A stretch of DNA of 43,181 bases from a bacterium (GTDB lineage: Bacteria > Armatimonadota > Zipacnadia > Zipacnadales > UBA11051), in contig JAJFUB010000054.1 in NCBI GenBank assembly GCA_021372615.1, positions 1-43,181 of the forward strand. Direction: 5' to 3'. This document shows, one piece after another, positions 9,902 to 40,546 of the stretch. The notes beneath the pieces were generated by a model that was not told the origin of the DNA, made no database searches, and saw only the letters and a program-made list of their open reading frames with translations. Both the position numbers and the translations under genes were made by a program. Each line of letters starts with the position of its first letter. Position 1 is the first letter of the stretch.

Positions 9902-9923
9902 GCGCGCGTGAGGACACGCGCGC
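9902..9923. other. Perfect 9-bp hairpin between the two minus-strand glycosidase genes
   Basis: GCGCGCGTG and CACGCGCGC flank the tetraloop AGGA. It lies in the 114-bp spacer between the sialidase-like and GH32-type genes. No T run follows on the minus strand, so it looks more like an mRNA stability or processing structure than a terminator. Confidence 0.5.
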
Positions 9924-12312: not shown

Positions 12313-12394
12313 GAGCGCGGGCTTTCCAGCCCGCGCCTTGCGGTGCTGCACCACGAACGGCAACGTCCGCGGGCTGGAAAGCCCGCGCTCCAAC
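12309..12394. repeat. Inverted pair of family B palindromic repeats (BIME-like)
   Basis: The left copy (12309-12335) has a GTAG head and the stem GCGGGCT / AGCCCGC around TTCC. The right copy (12368-12394) is its exact reverse complement over 24 bases (12312-12335 against 12368-12391), with a 32-base centre. A degenerate third copy with a GGCTC / GAGCC core follows at about 12395-12425. The rest of the gap to 12485 holds only the ribosome binding site of the next gene. Confidence 0.85.
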
Positions 12395-16429: not shown

Positions 16430-16470
16430 GCCGTCACTGACGAGTGCCACTATCACACATGGGGAACGAT

Positions 16471-19400
16471 ATGAGAACCGTCTGCTTCGTTGCTTTGCTG
16501 CTGCTCGCGAGCTGTGCCGCCTTCGCCGAACCCCTCGTCCCTAACGCCGGCCTCGAGACCGGGACCGACAAGCCGGATGGCTGGTCGTGGCGCACGGGCG
16601 AAGGAGGCCTGGGGGAGTTCGAGTGGACCGCCCGGATGGCCCATACCGGCCAGAAGTCGTTCCGCATCAAGCGCGCGGGCGCCTCGGGCTACACGGCTCT
16701 CGATAGCGAGGCGATCGGCGTCACACCGGGCATGACCGTCCGCGTTGCTGCCTGGATCTACCCGGTCAAGCCGGTGCGGCGTGGCGTGTACTTCATGGTC
16801 ACCCAGCACAAGCCGGGGACGGACGCTGAGGACCTTCCCAATACCTTCGGCGTCACCACGGCCGCCTTCGTGCCGCAGGTCTGGCAGCAGGTCAGCGTCA
16901 AGCTGACCATCCGCGAGGGCATTGACCGCATCCGCCTGCACTGCATCCAGGCGTTTCTGCCCTCCGAGCTGTACTGGGATGACTTCACCGTCACCGAGGC
17001 CGGGGCCGAACCCCAGCCGCGCTACGAGCCGCCCACCAAGGAAGACGTGCCACCCCTGACGCCGGAGCTGGAGGCCACGGTAGCCAAGCGCCCCCGCGCC
17101 ACGGCCAGGGTCGAGATGCGCGGCGAGCGCCCGCGCCTCCTCGTGGACGGCAAGCCCACGCCCTTCGCCTGGTATGTCAGCGCCTTCGGCGGGCCGGGCT
17201 TCTTCAGCAACGCGCAGATCGGCGACTTCGCCAAGGTCGGCGTACACGTCTACCTCGTGCCGCTCGTCCTCGGCAACGGCCTATACGGCGCCAAGGGTCC
17301 GTGGCTGGGGAAAGACCAGTACGACTTCAGTGTCGTGGATGACCTCCTGTGGCGCGTGCTGCGCGTGGACCCGCAGGGCTACGTCATCTTCTACATGTGC
17401 TCCGACCCCTACCCGGCCTGGGGCGCCGAGAACCCCGACCATGTCACGCAGGATCAGAATGGCCAGAAGGCCATCGTGTGGATGCATCCCAAGCGCTGGG
17501 GCAACGACCCCAAGGAGGGCGAGCGCTTCGCCCCGAGCCTGGTGTCGCACAAGCTGCGCGACGATGTGTCGGCGACGCTGAAGCTCCTGGCCAAGCACGT
17601 CGAGAGCAGCGTCCCCGGCCGTGCGGTCATCGGCTACCACGTCGCCGGCTTCAACGACGGCCAGTGGTTCCAGTGGGCCAGCCTGAACCCGGCGGACCTG
17701 CACTTGGCCGACTACTGCCCCGGTGCGGAGGCAGCCTTCCGCGAGTGGCTCAGCCACCGCTACCACACCTCCCCGGAGGGTCCGATTGTGTGGAGCGAGG
17801 AGCCGTTCCGGAAGGCCTGGAACGACCCCAACGTCACGACCATGGATGCGCGGATACCGGGGGCGGACAAGCTGTGGGCGGACCGTGTCTTCGTGGACCC
17901 CGCGACCGAGCGCCAGGTCGCCGATTACCAGCGCTTCTACTCCGAGGGCGTGGCCGAGAACGTCATGGCCCTGGCGAGGGTGCTCAAGTCCGAGACCCGG
18001 CGCCCGATCATCTGCGGCACGTACTATGAGGACATCACCTGCAACTCCACCAACCACATCGCCCTCGGGCGCTTCCTGAATGACACGGCGATTGACTACC
18101 TGGCCGGCCCGGCCGCCTACTCCATCCGCATGGCCGGTTGCCAGGGCGCGGTGCGCAGTGTCTTCGCCTCGACCGAACTGCATGGCAAGATGTACCTGAC
18201 CGAACAGGACTGGCGCTCATGGCACTCGGTGCCCAACCAGCCCGAGCAGAACTTCTCGTGGGGGCGGGCCGAGACTGCCGACATCCACAATGCCATGGTG
18301 CGGCGCGAGTGCGGCATGATGCTCGCCTTCGGGCTGGGCACCTGGTGGTACGACATGTCCGGCGGATGGTTCCGCGACGACCAGATCATGGCCGGCATCG
18401 GTGAGGCTGTGCGGGCCTTCAACATGGAACTGGCCGACCGGGACCGCCCGCAAGCCGACCTGGCGGTCTTCGTCTCCGAGGAAAGCGACAGCTATATCCG
18501 CATGAGGTACGGCGGCCAGTATCGCCACGTGGGCATCGTCCAGCAGATCGAGGAGCTGAACACGGCGGGCGTACCGTACCGACTGTACCTGCAGTCGGAC
18601 CTGGGCCAGATGAAGCTCCCCAACCACAAGGCCTATCTGTTCCTGAACCCCTATGTCATTACGGACGCCCAGCGCGCAGCCATTGAGGGTCTCAAGCGCG
18701 ACGGCAAGCTCCTCGCGTTCGTCCACGCCCCGGGGATCATCGGTAGCGACGACCCCGCGAAGACGGCGGCGGAGATCACGGGGCTGAGGCTGACAGCCTT
18801 GGCCGGCGAGACGCCGGCACTGGGCGCGGAGGGGGGACAGGGCCAGGGCGGGGCGACGAACCAGGGCGGGACGCCGAACCAGGGCGGGGCGCCGAACCAG
18901 GGCGGGGTGTCGCCGCAGGCGACAGGGACCCCGCCGGCGAGCGGGACGAAGGGCCAGGGCGGGGCACAGGGCTCGGGCCCCGACTCAGGCGTAGTGCGGG
19001 CTTCCAGCCCGCAACCGGCGCCCGGGGCGGGCTCGAAGCCCGCACTACATCCCCTGCTCGCCGGCATGGAGGATGAGGTCATCATGTCCCCCGCCCCCCA
19101 GGCCAATGCCCTGCAAGTCGTGGACCCACAGGCCGTCCCGCTGACCACCTACGAGAGCAGCACGGCCGTCGGCTGCGCGGCACGGGACTTCGGCAAGTGG
19201 AAGAGCGTCTTCATCGGCAGCCCGTGGATCAGCGCGGGCTTCGCCCGCAACCTGGCGCAGTGGGCGGGTTGCTGGGTCGCCGCCGCGCCCGGCGATGCCG
19301 TCTATGCCAGCCAGCACTTCCTGACCATCCATGCGCTCTTCCCGGGCCACAAGGTGCTCCGACTCAAGCAGCCGGCGAAGGTGACGGACCTGACGACAGG

Positions 19401-19479
19401 CCGCGTTGTCGCGGCCCGCGCACAGACGGTCGAGGTGGACATGGAGCGCGGGCAGACGCGGTGGTTCCGGCTGGACTGA
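16471..19479 (+). CDS. Secreted GH42-like glycosidase with a repeat-built insert
   Basis: The 1002-residue protein has a signal peptide (MRTVCFVALLLLASC, cleavage near AFA-EP), a jelly-roll carbohydrate-binding domain at about 22-180 (PNAGLETG, LYWDDFTV) and a TIM barrel from about 205 that resembles beta-galactosidase-like clan GH-A enzymes. The candidate nucleophile is Glu578 in YLTEQDW. The acid/base position in GYHVAGFNDGQW reads Asn395-Asp396 rather than Asn-Glu, so activity is uncertain. GGGGA precedes the ATG at 16471; a GTG at 16444 would only add residues before the signal peptide. Residues about 777-860 are not domain sequence but translated repeats (18800-19048). Confidence 0.8.
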   Translation: MRTVCFVALLLLASCAAFAEPLVPNAGLETGTDKPDGWSWRTGEGGLGEFEWTARMAHTGQKSFRIKRAGASGYTALDSEAIGVTPGMTVRVAAWIYPVKPVRRGVYFMVTQHKPGTDAEDLPNTFGVTTAAFVPQVWQQVSVKLTIREGIDRIRLHCIQAFLPSELYWDDFTVTEAGAEPQPRYEPPTKEDVPPLTPELEATVAKRPRATARVEMRGERPRLLVDGKPTPFAWYVSAFGGPGFFSNAQIGDFAKVGVHVYLVPLVLGNGLYGAKGPWLGKDQYDFSVVDDLLWRVLRVDPQGYVIFYMCSDPYPAWGAENPDHVTQDQNGQKAIVWMHPKRWGNDPKEGERFAPSLVSHKLRDDVSATLKLLAKHVESSVPGRAVIGYHVAGFNDGQWFQWASLNPADLHLADYCPGAEAAFREWLSHRYHTSPEGPIVWSEEPFRKAWNDPNVTTMDARIPGADKLWADRVFVDPATERQVADYQRFYSEGVAENVMALARVLKSETRRPIICGTYYEDITCNSTNHIALGRFLNDTAIDYLAGPAAYSIRMAGCQGAVRSVFASTELHGKMYLTEQDWRSWHSVPNQPEQNFSWGRAETADIHNAMVRRECGMMLAFGLGTWWYDMSGGWFRDDQIMAGIGEAVRAFNMELADRDRPQADLAVFVSEESDSYIRMRYGGQYRHVGIVQQIEELNTAGVPYRLYLQSDLGQMKLPNHKAYLFLNPYVITDAQRAAIEGLKRDGKLLAFVHAPGIIGSDDPAKTAAEITGLRLTALAGETPALGAEGGQGQGGATNQGGTPNQGGAPNQGGVSPQATGTPPASGTKGQGGAQGSGPDSGVVRASSPQPAPGAGSKPALHPLLAGMEDEVIMSPAPQANALQVVDPQAVPLTTYESSTAVGCAARDFGKWKSVFIGSPWISAGFARNLAQWAGCWVAAAPGDAVYASQHFLTIHALFPGHKVLRLKQPAKVTDLTTGRVVAARAQTVEVDMERGQTRWFRLD
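18800..18823. repeat. Intragenic palindrome, family D copy 1
   Basis: Core GCCGGCG-AGA-CGCCGGC (18802-18818), read in frame as LAGETPAL near residues 777-784. The 24-base segment matches 37906-37929, inside an unrelated gene on the other strand, at 23 of 24 bases. Confidence 0.75.
18841..18912 (+). repeat. 18-bp tandem repeat, four units, in frame
   Basis: Units start at 18841, 18859, 18877 and 18895 and encode GQGGAT, NQGGTP, NQGGAP and NQGGVS. Degenerate GQGG sequence continues to about 18980. It is part of the insert in the GH42-like protein and would form a flexible Gly/Gln/Pro linker. Confidence 0.85.
18991..19048. repeat. Intragenic inverted pair of family B repeats (BIME-like)
   Basis: The left copy (18991-19013) has a GTAG head and stem GCGGGCT / AGCCCGC. 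The right copy (19027-19048) is inverted and ends CACTAC. They are read in frame (GTA GTG CGG ...) through residues 841-860 without a stop. The same family lies between genes at 12309-12394. Confidence 0.85.
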
Positions 19480-35204: not shown

Positions 35205-35273
35205 GTAGTGTGGGCGGCCTCGCCCGCACACGAACCACTGCCGTCCGTGGGCAGGCGAGGCCGCCTGCACTAC
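35205..35273. repeat. Inverted pair of family C GTAG-headed repeats (BIME-like)
   Basis: The left copy (35205-35230) has GTAG and the stem GGGCG-GCCT-CGCCC. The right copy (35251-35273, inverted) reads GTAG and CAGGCG-GCCT-CGCCTG on the minus strand. The stems carry compensating differences, so pairing is kept within each copy. A third copy lies at the window start. With family G it fills the 201-bp gap between ptb and the acetyltransferase gene. Confidence 0.85.
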
Positions 35274-36487: not shown

Positions 36488-39400
36488 CTACTTCTGGCGC
36501 GGCAGTTCGACGACCTGTCCGGCCTTCACCTGCAACGTGAGGGGCTGGCGTCCCGTGAACTGCAGCGTCACCTTGCCCCCACCGTCGTGGCCCACAATGA
36601 GCCAGCCACGATCCCAGTACCCGTACACGCACAGACTCAGCGGCCGGTCGGCCCACAGCTTGAGCAACTTGTCGGTATGCTGTGTGCACTTCACGAGCGA
36701 CACGAACCCGCCCTCGTCATGCTCGCCCTTGTAGGCCATCGCGCCGGTGAAAGTGCCGCCGGGGAAGCGGCAGGGCTTCGTCGGGTCGGGCGAGAGTTTG
36801 AGAGAGCCCAGACTCGTCTCCACCGAGACTCCGGTTGCGTCCGTCACCCACTGGGCCGATCCGCCGTAGGGCTGCGCCGGCGCCAGGATCGTGCCGAAGA
36901 TCGTGTCGGTGGCCTCGCGCCGCAGAATCTGCATCGGCATGAGCCTATCCAGGGCCGTGGTGATGCTCCGGCCGACGATGAGTTCCGTCGGCTCACCACC
37001 CAGGCTCGTGATCGTCAGGCCGCTTCTCTCGTCGCCCCACGTCGTGCTGCTCTGCTGGGCCGTGGCCGCCGCCCCCTGCGCCTGGTGGATGTGCTGATAG
37101 CCGCAGTTCTTGCCGAGAGGATCCGCCAGCGGCGTCAGCGGTGCCGAGGCCGACTTGAAGGGCGCGTCAATGTGTAGGGCGTAGTCGTAGACGTGCTTGT
37201 CGCGGCTCCGCACACGGTAGAAGTCCACGATCCGCCCGTCCACCAGTGCCACCGTCCGCGTCAGCTGGACGCCCTCGAAGACGGCGTCGCAGCTCGCCTG
37301 CGCGACCCGCAGAAACGGGTCGGCATGGAAGAACCCGAGCTTGCCCATGGCTCGCTTCTGGAAGCTGTCGCACGGCCACGTCTTGTCCGTATCGAGGCCG
37401 GGGTACTGGCTCCTGCCATCTACGGTGAGCGTGTTGTGGCTGATCGTGTGGGCAGTCCACTGGCCCTTCTCGGCGCTGTCATAGCCGCAGGAGCCGAAGT
37501 CCGGGAGGAGCTGCTTGCCGTTGTTCCAGACCGCGAGGCTGAGCTTGTCGGGGTGGTTGTGCCCACCGCCGTAGGGGCCGAAGGTCATGTTGACGGCCAA
37601 CCCCTCGGTGCTCGGGAGCTTGCCCGCGTAGTCGCCCTGGCGCAGCAGCGCCAAGCCGCTGGAGGGGAACAGGCTGCTGCCGTACTCGAGCACGCCATTG
37701 TTACAGAATCTGGCCCCGCTGTAGTCGAACTTGCCCGGGTTGGGCGGGCGCTCGTAGAGCAGGTCATCCAGATTCGGCCCGGCAGAGGAGGCGTCGGTCA
37801 TCACGACCGACTTCGGGCCGATGACGGCGGTGGGGGGGCGGGCGACCCAGTCGGTGAGCTTGCCGTCCACAGTGAGGCCCGAAGCGCGAGGGGCCACGAT
37901 CGCCCTGGCCGGCGGGACGCCGGCACTGGACAGCAGCAGCGTGCCACCCTCGGCCGAGTCGTAGCGGTCGTTCTGACAGGACCAGCAGACCATCTTCTCC
38001 TTGGTCGTGTTGCCACCGGTGCTGTCGCAGTCATACAGCACGAAGTCCGCAGTCAGCTTGCCGCCCTCGCGGGGCACGAAGGCCGTCCCCTGCTCGTCGC
38101 CCTGCGGGGCGAGTTCACTCAGCGGGATGGCCAACTCGAGCGCATAGCCCTCCGGCGTCTTCGTGACGACGTACTTGCCCGCGCTCACGCCCGCGTTGGC
38201 GAGACCGAAGCGGTTGAAGAGCGCGGCCACCGGGGGGACCTTGTCGAAGTCGCCGGGGCTGAGGCCATAGATGAAGTCATACGGCCCGCCCTGACCGTCG
38301 CGCCACTTGAGGCCCACCCACAGCGCATCCCCCTGCCACACGTCGCCGGGCTTGGTCCAACTGTTGCGCACGACCTGGTCGGTGATGTCGGCGGCGACAT
38401 ACAGGCGTTGGTCGTCCCAGGCCAGCCAGACCTTCGCTGCGGCATCCTTGGCCCCGAGCTTGGGGATGGTCGTCTGCCGACCCCGGTTGATGAGCCAGGC
38501 ATACTTGGGGTCGCGAGTGTGCTCCCAGGCCGCGCGGTAGGCGGCGTTGACCGAGAGCGGCCCGCGTCCGCTGTCGGCCACCACCGGCCACGTGAGGTCC
38601 GGGAACGTGTAGTAGAACGGGCCGTCGAACATGAGCTTCATGCTCTTGGGTCCGTTGTCGCCGTCGCCGACGCAGTAGTTGATGATGGGCTCGCGGTCGG
38701 TGTTGTAGTCATCCGGCACCGACAGCTTGTACAGGTCGAGGTTGCAGCGGGCGGCCGCCTGCAGCAGCGGGAACAGGGCGCTGATGACGAAGCTGTGGTA
38801 GCCCGCCGAGCGCTCCCAGAACAGGCCGTCATCCTGCACGTCGTGAGCCAGCAGGTGCTTGAGGCCATACGGGCCGTCGATCGCGTGCTCGACCATGTCA
38901 GCGTCTTGCAGCAACAGCCCCGTCAGTCCCACCGCCGAGTCGAACCACGCCTGGAAGTTGTAGCACTTGTAGTGCAAGTCGCCAGGGCGGTTGTCCTGCG
39001 GGTCGTGGTAGTCGCGTACCCAGAACAGCTCGGCGCCGGGTCGGAGCAGGTCGCGCTCGATCTGCGCGCGCTCCGCGGCGGTGAAGCATGGGCTCTCATA
39101 GGCGAGGTCATACGCGCACACGAGCGGCACGAACCACACGGCCTCATAGAGGCCGGACACGGTCTTGGTGATCTTCACGCGGCCACCGCGCGCGGGCAGC
39201 GTGGGGTACAGCTTCGCGTAACCGAGCAGCGCGTCATGGACCCACTGCGCGTAGCGCTCATCGCCGAGCAACTGGTAGTACAGGCCGACCTGCTGCAGCC
39301 GCGAGGTGACGGCGGACATCTCGTCGGTCACGCCGGTGGGGATGGTCGCGGGCTTGCTGACATACCCGTCCGCCGAGCTGCGCAGGGAGGCCAGCAGCTT

Positions 39401-40546
39401 CTCGTTCTCCCGGGTCTGCAGCGCCCGGCGCGCGCGCTCCAGTTGCGCCGCGCCATAGAGCAGGTACGGGTGCTTCGCCGGCACGCCGCCGCCGGGGGCG
39501 AGGGCCGGGGCCATCGGCCGGGTCTGGCACATGCCAGTCGTCTCGGGTCCGCCGTCAGGGGACTTGACGTTGACGGCATACCAGGCGGAGGCCGGACCGG
39601 GGACGAGGAACTCCGTGGCGGATACAGGCACAGAGCCGACGCCCAGGGGCTTGCTCTGCGGGGTCATCATCTTCGTTAGGCCCAGGCCCGCGCAGCGGCT
39701 GTCCGGGTCGAGCTGCCAGCGCAGCCGCACCGACCCGTCCAGCCGCACCGTGGCGGTGACGCGCTGCGGCGCCTTCGGCGGCGGCAGCTTCCCCGTCCTC
39801 ACGGTGACGGTCGCGGGGCGGCTGGCCACACCCTCGCCGGCCAGCGCCTCGACGGTGTAAGTGTACGCCTGGTTGCTGCGCACCGTCCGATCCACGAACT
39901 CCCGCACCGCAGTCTCGCTGATCTCGTCGCCCCGGCGGACGCGGTAGCGCAGCAGGTCGGCGTAGTCGGCCGTCATCCCCCAGGTCAGGCGCACCGCTCC
40001 GCCCTTCGTGACGATGGCCTGCAGCTTCGTGGGCGGCGCCAGCGTCGTCGGGTCCAGCGGCTGCAGCTTCACGTGCTCATAGCGTACGTTGTGGTTGTAG
40101 TAGTGCAGGAAGCCGACGCGGCCCTGAGCGGGCGGCTCACCGTACACGGTGGGGCCACTGCTGATGAGTTGCCCGTCGCGATACAGCAGACTCCGTCCCC
40201 CGAGCACGAGCAGGCGGAAGTGGACCTTCTCCCCCACCTTGAGCGTGTCGAGCGGCAGGAAGAACGCCTTGCGGTTCTCGTGTTTATCCGCCTGCACGGC
40301 CCAGACGATGATCGCGCGGAGCTTCGGCCCGCCGGCCGGCCGGGCGACCATGTCGAACTCCAGGGCGAAGTCGCGGAAGTCCTGCGCGGTCAGTAGGTAC
40401 TTGTCCGGCGTGCTGCCGCCGCCGTCGCTGATCTCAATGGCGCCATCCGGCCCCACCTGGTAGGCCTCGGGTGCCCGGTCCCACTGGATCTGAGCCAGGC
40501 CCAGCGTCGCCGTCGAGAGTGCTATCGCTACGAGCAGCGTCCGCAT
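36488..40546 (-). CDS. Secreted heparinase II/III-like polysaccharide lyase with an inserted CBM9-like domain
   Basis: The 1352-residue protein has a signal peptide (1-18), a concanavalin-like/DUF1080-like sandwich (about 20-165) and two fibronectin III domains (170-255 and 258-345). An alpha/alpha-toroid of the alginate/heparin lyase type spans about 355-690 (HYKCYNFQAWF). A CBM9-like block spans 695-895 (LAWDDQRLYVAADITD), and a heparinase II/III beta-sandwich runs to the end, with GGGHNHPDKLSL and SHNTLTVDG. It should cleave acidic polysaccharide outside the cell. AAGGAGGA lies before the ATG. Within the insert the usual CBM9 opening (LTVDGKLTDW) comes last, suggesting a permuted copy. A family D palindrome sits at that linker. 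Confidence 0.8.
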   Translation of the reverse strand: MRTLLVAIALSTATLGLAQIQWDRAPEAYQVGPDGAIEISDGGGSTPDKYLLTAQDFRDFALEFDMVARPAGGPKLRAIIVWAVQADKHENRKAFFLPLDTLKVGEKVHFRLLVLGGRSLLYRDGQLISSGPTVYGEPPAQGRVGFLHYYNHNVRYEHVKLQPLDPTTLAPPTKLQAIVTKGGAVRLTWGMTADYADLLRYRVRRGDEISETAVREFVDRTVRSNQAYTYTVEALAGEGVASRPATVTVRTGKLPPPKAPQRVTATVRLDGSVRLRWQLDPDSRCAGLGLTKMMTPQSKPLGVGSVPVSATEFLVPGPASAWYAVNVKSPDGGPETTGMCQTRPMAPALAPGGGVPAKHPYLLYGAAQLERARRALQTRENEKLLASLRSSADGYVSKPATIPTGVTDEMSAVTSRLQQVGLYYQLLGDERYAQWVHDALLGYAKLYPTLPARGGRVKITKTVSGLYEAVWFVPLVCAYDLAYESPCFTAAERAQIERDLLRPGAELFWVRDYHDPQDNRPGDLHYKCYNFQAWFDSAVGLTGLLLQDADMVEHAIDGPYGLKHLLAHDVQDDGLFWERSAGYHSFVISALFPLLQAAARCNLDLYKLSVPDDYNTDREPIINYCVGDGDNGPKSMKLMFDGPFYYTFPDLTWPVVADSGRGPLSVNAAYRAAWEHTRDPKYAWLINRGRQTTIPKLGAKDAAAKVWLAWDDQRLYVAADITDQVVRNSWTKPGDVWQGDALWVGLKWRDGQGGPYDFIYGLSPGDFDKVPPVAALFNRFGLANAGVSAGKYVVTKTPEGYALELAIPLSELAPQGDEQGTAFVPREGGKLTADFVLYDCDSTGGNTTKEKMVCWSCQNDRYDSAEGGTLLLSSAGVPPARAIVAPRASGLTVDGKLTDWVARPPTAVIGPKSVVMTDASSAGPNLDDLLYERPPNPGKFDYSGARFCNNGVLEYGSSLFPSSGLALLRQGDYAGKLPSTEGLAVNMTFGPYGGGHNHPDKLSLAVWNNGKQLLPDFGSCGYDSAEKGQWTAHTISHNTLTVDGRSQYPGLDTDKTWPCDSFQKRAMGKLGFFHADPFLRVAQASCDAVFEGVQLTRTVALVDGRIVDFYRVRSRDKHVYDYALHIDAPFKSASAPLTPLADPLGKNCGYQHIHQAQGAAATAQQSSTTWGDERSGLTITSLGGEPTELIVGRSITTALDRLMPMQILRREATDTIFGTILAPAQPYGGSAQWVTDATGVSVETSLGSLKLSPDPTKPCRFPGGTFTGAMAYKGEHDEGGFVSLVKCTQHTDKLLKLWADRPLSLCVYGYWDRGWLIVGHDGGGKVTLQFTGRQPLTLQVKAGQVVELPRQK
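37906..37929. repeat. Intragenic palindrome, family D copy 2
   Basis: Core GCCGGCG-GGA-CGCCGGC (37908-37924), one base different from the copy at 18800-18823. On the coding (minus) strand it is read as SAGVPPAR near residues 873-880 of the lyase, in the linker after the CBM9-like block. Confidence 0.75.

Follow-up and report, generated by a model that had tools for sequence, protein, structure and literature searches.

Two palindrome copies lie in linkers of two window genes

The analysed DNA, hereafter the window, is a stretch of 43,181 nucleotides (contig JAJFUB010000054.1, positions 1 to 43,181) from a bacterium of the Armatimonadota (assembly GCA_021372615.1). It carries two copies of one palindrome, the first in a gene for a GH42-like glycoside hydrolase (GH), whose longest open reading frame starts at 16444, and the second in an oppositely oriented gene for a heparinase-like protein (Table 1). 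Judging by the appearance of their N-termini, both hosts are putatively secreted. A search of the window with GGCCGGCGRGACGCCGGCACTGG, allowing up to 3 mismatches, returned these 2 matches and none in 100 dinucleotide shuffles, and a scan of the whole window with the 25-mer used found no third site within 4 mismatches. Rfam gave no match at the gathering threshold anywhere in the window.

Table 1 Features of the two palindrome loci in the window.
Feature	Position	Strand	Remarks
REP copy 1, 30-nt unit	18797..18826	+	hairpin core 18802-18818; forward phase 0 reads LAGETPAL
REP copy 2, 30-nt unit	37903..37932	+	hairpin core 37908-37924; gene on - strand, reverse phase 0 reads SAGVPPAR
Host gene 1, GH42-like glycoside hydrolase	16459..19479	+	CBM_4_9 match under cut-off
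Host gene 2, alginate lyase / CBM9 / heparinase II-III-like	36488..40546	-	REP lies between CBM9_1 and Hepar_II_III_C
18-nt tandem array, 3.6 copies	18843..18907	+	GH insert, directly after the REP
Palindrome of another family, GCGGGCTTCCAGCCCGC	18996..19012	-	GH insert
Variant palindrome of that other family, GCGGGCTCGAAGCCCGC, ACTA tail	19027..19043	+	end of GH insert, read AGSKPAL

A sequence-only reading of this DNA had reported that 18800-18823 and 37906-37929 share 23 of 24 bases and are read as two different peptides from opposite strands. Both the identity, with a single A/G difference, and the two peptides are confirmed. The reading directions are indeed opposite, but the peptides are not unrelated, as that reading had held: both arise by phase-0 reading of a sequence that is almost its own complement and that gives AG..PA either way. 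The proposed placement in linkers at domain borders holds for both copies. In the heparinase, the palindrome covers residues ~874-881, between CBM9_1 (699-861) and Hepar_II_III_C (957-1105); in the GH, it falls at residue ~781 (counted from start 16459), between two blocks that align in homologs devoid of it.

Other palindromes are present in the window. The sequence GCGGGCTTCCAGCCCGC has 4 more exact copies among the loci of the same genome that were compared, and GCGGGCTCGAAGCCCGC, inverted relative to it, is a variant of the same family. A further palindrome, GCGGGCTTTCCAGCCCGC, forms an inverted pair with its complement at 12316-12386 and has 4 more copies in the compared loci, and palindromes at 35251-35268 and 9903-9922 likewise recur in other loci of the genome (4 and 2 more copies, respectively).

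The palindrome belongs to a genome-wide REP family

Searching the genome (6.41 Mb, 171 contigs) with the core GCCGGCGRGACGCCGGC yielded 43 exact copies, and GCCGGCGRGACGCCGGCACTG, the core followed by ACTG, matched 26+19 = 45 sites with at most 1 mismatch; the reversed control matched none. The earlier proviso that copies might be confined to the two window genes is clearly not borne out by ~45 copies. The profile of the 43 exact copies has sharp edges and defines a unit of ~30 nt, made of CC[T/G]GG, a perfect 7-bp hairpin (GCCGGCG-RGA-CGCCGGC) and ACTGG[G/A]CG, beyond which extends a loosely purine-rich tail. Folded as single-stranded DNA, the core closes a loop of 3 nt with the 7-bp stem. 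Some copies stand alone and others are arranged in tandem (at spacings of 41, 41, and 40 nt on contig C22) or as inverted pairs, with tandem or inverted, BIME-like pairs on C22, C136, C138, C42, C68, and C5. These data demonstrate a REP family; REPs, RAYTs, and intragenic REPs are already known as a kind.

A GC-rich palindrome might arise readily by chance in such a GC-rich genome, the window having a GC content of 68.7%, and when only the short core was searched with 3 mismatches the reversed control matched often too (353+321 vs 538+491). The 45 versus 0 matches obtained once the tail was included at ≤1 mismatch, the 0 matches in 100 shuffles and the non-palindromic tail common to the copies refute this origin, to which we assign a negligible probability.

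With at most 1 mismatch, the palindrome was found in none of the 45 other genomes of the class, and among 15 more distant genomes a single one holds two one-mismatch matches. The exact 23-mer retrieved 0 stretches from genome_contigs, a collection from which the source genome or a near-identical one is possibly excluded, and 0 from viral_contigs.

Most copies lie in genes and share one codon phase

Genes were called in this analysis, without an annotation, on a fragmented assembly in which clustered copies are not independent. Frames were assigned by a codon score computed on the flanks only and by a gene caller trained on the genome; the two agree in clear cases. The 45 copies divide into 27 in called genes and 18 between genes, so that the extragenic location usual for REPs is not what characterizes this family, and 24 of the intragenic copies are in one phase. 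Two intragenic copies were set apart. The one on C27 falls at residue 5 of a frame that, in our judgement, probably starts farther downstream; it represents a start miscall. The one on C26 is off-phase and lies in a pseudogene with a stop and a frameshift (contig positions 44669-45348, locus L122), called carboxylesterase-like from a reading of its translation. Within intact genes, 24 of 25 copies (13 forward, 11 reverse), in 17 of 18 genes, are in phase 0, the sole exception being a copy on C109, in a TPR protein with membrane-like segments. The phase-0 consensus is AG[E/G]TPAL forward and AGV[S/P]PA reverse, the unit being translated as WAGETPALG or LAGGTPALD in the first case and as SAGVSPAQ or SAGVPPAK in the second. 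No stop codon occurs in any of the six frames, and the four other frames carry RR or RRR.

The hosts are diverse. ProRS, NuoL, and ArgJ score over the curated NCBIfam cut-offs, and the closest named relatives of this NuoL come from Armatimonadota MAGs, at 49%; the host on C68 is nitroreductase-like, with a BluB match under the cut-off; further hosts are glycoside hydrolases, heparinase-like, prolyl-oligopeptidase-like, and beta-helix proteins. No Pfam match was obtained for the C52 protein and the C27 frame. The C5 gene (L106 602-3250) encodes a GH123-like protein with three REP copies and, near its C-terminus, SAGFQPAQ and GLEARTT, which resemble further palindrome families read in frame.

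The linker peptide could in principle have spread at the protein level, by duplication, domain shuffling, or gene conversion, and many hosts are indeed multi-domain glycoside hydrolases with copies in linkers. The copies on both strands with different peptides, the 18 intergenic copies, the inverted copies flanking a RAYT gene (see below) and the unrelated hosts speak against such a spread. We consider it refuted by the intergenic and opposite-strand copies, and hence very improbable.

How much of the phase lock could follow from where a GC-rich sequence is able to land? On this account, which shares the REP/RAYT origin, the phase would be set by target choice: runs of GCCGGC-like codons lie predominantly in phase 0 in GC-rich genes, whichever the strand, and the element would enter such pre-existing runs or patch over them. 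Across 213 called genes, 347 of 633 GCCGGC occurrences (55%) are in phase 0, and the 8-mers of the unit are mostly in phase 0 as well (404/685 forward, 287/575 reverse). The phase lock is therefore partly a matter of composition, given the 55% expected. Against this composition null, the lock remains significant, with p = 6e-6 when copies are counted and 3e-4 when genes are, or p = 4e-5 and 1.5e-3, respectively, when the C26 pseudogene is scored as a miss. Moreover, TGG before the core is found in 0 of 13 forward in-frame copies compared with 14 of the 29 copies that are intergenic or reverse in-frame (p = 0.0016), or with 7 of 18 intergenic copies alone (p = 0.025); this missing Trp codon is an effect at the peptide level, which speaks against target choice. 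The spacing between neighbouring copies is a multiple of 3 in 7/7 intragenic pairs and in 2/10 intergenic pairs, the mixed C27 pair being left out. The phase lock, the missing TGG and the spacing, together with the off-phase copy in the C26 pseudogene, point to selection on the encoded peptide as the probable cause.

As a control we used another palindrome family of the same genome, GCCGGCTGGAAGCCGGC, represented by 13 exact copies among the matches listed. An earlier count of this family (2/18 in genes, p = 0.0006), based on a TACGG tail and ≤3 mismatches, was biased, since copies with a changed tail were lost. With 5 of the 13 exact copies among the matches listed located in genes (p = 0.21), we dropped the idea that an in-gene location is special to the REP. 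The control family is in phase 0 in 2 of these 5 in-gene copies, among the matches listed, versus 24/25 for the REP (p = 0.009, on very small numbers).

Insertion in some genes, replacement in others

Seven host genes were compared with homologs to distinguish insertion from replacement. The window GH has 69 extra residues from the REP on, which all 10 homologs compared (identity up to 74%) lack; this insert contains the REP, the 18-nt array and, near its end, the inverted pair of the other palindrome family. ArgJ (L119 4339-5685) has 48 extra residues, rich in Ala, Pro, and Gly and absent in 24 of 24 homologs, which include a 27-nt array and, at the end, the REP; this insert ends ~20 residues ahead of the beta-chain start in solved ArgJ structures. 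These comparisons demonstrate an expansion at the REP in both proteins. On C42, an inverted REP pair coincides with ~12-13 extra residues relative to three homologs, a fourth aligned sequence (25% identical) being too distant for this comparison.

The remaining genes behave differently: ProRS has ~2 more residues than most of 24 homologs, and the C52 protein ~2 more than most of 11; the heparinase shows a net length difference of 0 with 2 of 3 homologs and is ~3 residues shorter than the third; and the variable loop of NuoL is shorter than in its closest homolog. Simple insertion cannot cover all copies, since length is unchanged or ~2 residues greater in the heparinase, ProRS and the C52 protein and the NuoL loop is shorter. 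As far as these alignments go, insertion is demonstrated for some copies only, and in several genes the REP stands in place of native sequence, whether through one event or through later trimming. The insertion proposed from the window is thus demonstrated for the GH copy but not for the heparinase copy.

The replacement-like lengths in the heparinase, ProRS, and the C52 protein favour target choice, but the homologous DNA at REP sites has no clear GCCGGC. Weighing this with the phase statistics, we regard target choice as an unlikely explanation of the phase lock, and selection on the peptide as the preferred one.

In four genes, the best-scoring arrays beside intragenic copies repeat every 18, 57, 27, and 45 nt, each period being divisible by 3, and the same genes contain weaker tandem rows with other periods. 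In the C56 gene, the 18-nt unit is similar to the REP tail.

A RAYT gene is flanked by inverted REP copies

The genome has 7 Y1_Tnp matches. One of these genes, on contig C146, is flanked by five REP copies, three on one side and two on the other, in inverted orientation, which demonstrates the pairing of this REP family with a RAYT. Its product scores 89 bits against REP_Tyr_transpos (NF047646; cut-off 80), thus passing, and can be aligned to 4er8, the TnpA-REP of E. coli, across the HuH motif, here PDHLH, and the tyrosine, which pairs with chain residue 115 of 4er8. We take Tyr115 of 4er8 to be the catalytic tyrosine. Upstream of the domain, the frame (L046 2267-2740) offers no in-frame ATG or GTG and one TTG; with this TTG as the only start, the gene may be damaged. 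Another frame at the locus encodes MTYAYRQPV..., so the start is uncertain or the gene shifted.

Of 150 other genomes, 71 contain relatives of this RAYT. A scan of 15 loci of RAYT relatives (L225-L239, of 24), made without a shuffle control, showed repeated palindromes, different in sequence, in 14. In the source genome, the loci of the six other Y1_Tnp genes (L034/L039-L045, L058-L063) contain other inverted or direct palindromic repeats. The genome thus seems to hold several REPtrons, as these loci suggest.

Discussion

The sequence-only reading had proposed that the palindrome spread at the DNA level. This part is well supported by ~45 copies, found in both orientations and in 18 cases between genes, and by a cognate RAYT; the picture was incomplete in that the RAYT, the codon-phase lock and the other palindrome family carried by the GH insert were all missed.

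REPs, RAYTs, and the flanking of RAYT genes by inverted copies are amply described in the portions of the literature covered here (PMC2817692, PMC8266576, PMC3116915), with copy numbers per genome given as usually >100 in the abstract of one study and from 37 upward in its table (PMC2817692). The present family resembles these REPtrons, as far as those portions describe them, in its short palindrome with a directional tag, its single, tandem, and inverted-pair arrangement and its inverted copies around the RAYT; it differs in that the hairpin bears no GTAG-type tag, most copies are intragenic and one codon phase is used on both strands. In the 43-copy profile, the unit ends in CC[T/G]GG and ACTGG (CCAGT on the other strand) rather than in GTAG or CGTC. 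According to the passages covered of PMC3733652, most REPs are intergenic, but intragenic GTAG and CGTC REPs, including dimers and groups, occur in unrelated proteins, tRNA synthetases among them, and a siting in linkers or loops was already proposed by its authors. The likeness to our family lies in the presence of REPs inside genes of unrelated proteins; codon phase goes unmentioned in those passages (PMC3733652). For a single codon phase on both strands, we found no published account, a weak negative given that Additional file 3 of PMC3733652 lay outside the search.

In the parts covered of PMC10969869 and PMC2229807, RPEs are described as palindromes of ~105-150 bp in Rickettsia genes. As those parts present them, RPEs share with our family the in-frame placement of palindromes within unrelated, often conserved genes. 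Their described size, ~100-150 bp, contrasts with a unit of ~30 nt accompanied here by a RAYT. We know of no cognate transposase for RPEs.

Taken together, we consider it likely that this is a REP mobilised by a RAYT, forming a REPtron, whose copies were sifted by selection acting on the peptide they encode. The C146 RAYT, bracketed by inverted REPs, presumably cut and spread the single-stranded hairpin in the way of E. coli TnpA-REP, and mobilisation by this enzyme is probable on the grounds of that analogy. Many copies would have landed in genes, where the 30-nt unit keeps the frame and introduces no stops. On each strand, one of the three readings yields small linker residues (AG[E/G]TPAL, SAGV[S/P]PA), and selection would then mainly have retained copies read in one of these two ways and located in linkers and loops. 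Around some copies, as in the window GH, the linker may have been widened by tandem slippage and by additional REPs.

A bolder proposal, which we advance tentatively and consider less likely than not, is that this REP population has the gene interior as its main niche: translatable on both strands as a harmless AG..PA linker and endowed with a slippage-prone tail, it would act as a generator of interdomain linkers. Where a loop is replaced rather than lengthened, single-stranded DNA made by the RAYT could have entered like a patch at replication forks.

In conclusion, a transposase-linked REP family is tied to recurrent in-frame remodelling of actual proteins, ProRS, NuoL, and ArgJ among them. 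Its codon-phase signature can tell selection on the peptide from random landing, and the REP system offers a way to follow how mobile DNA seeds low-complexity protein linkers.
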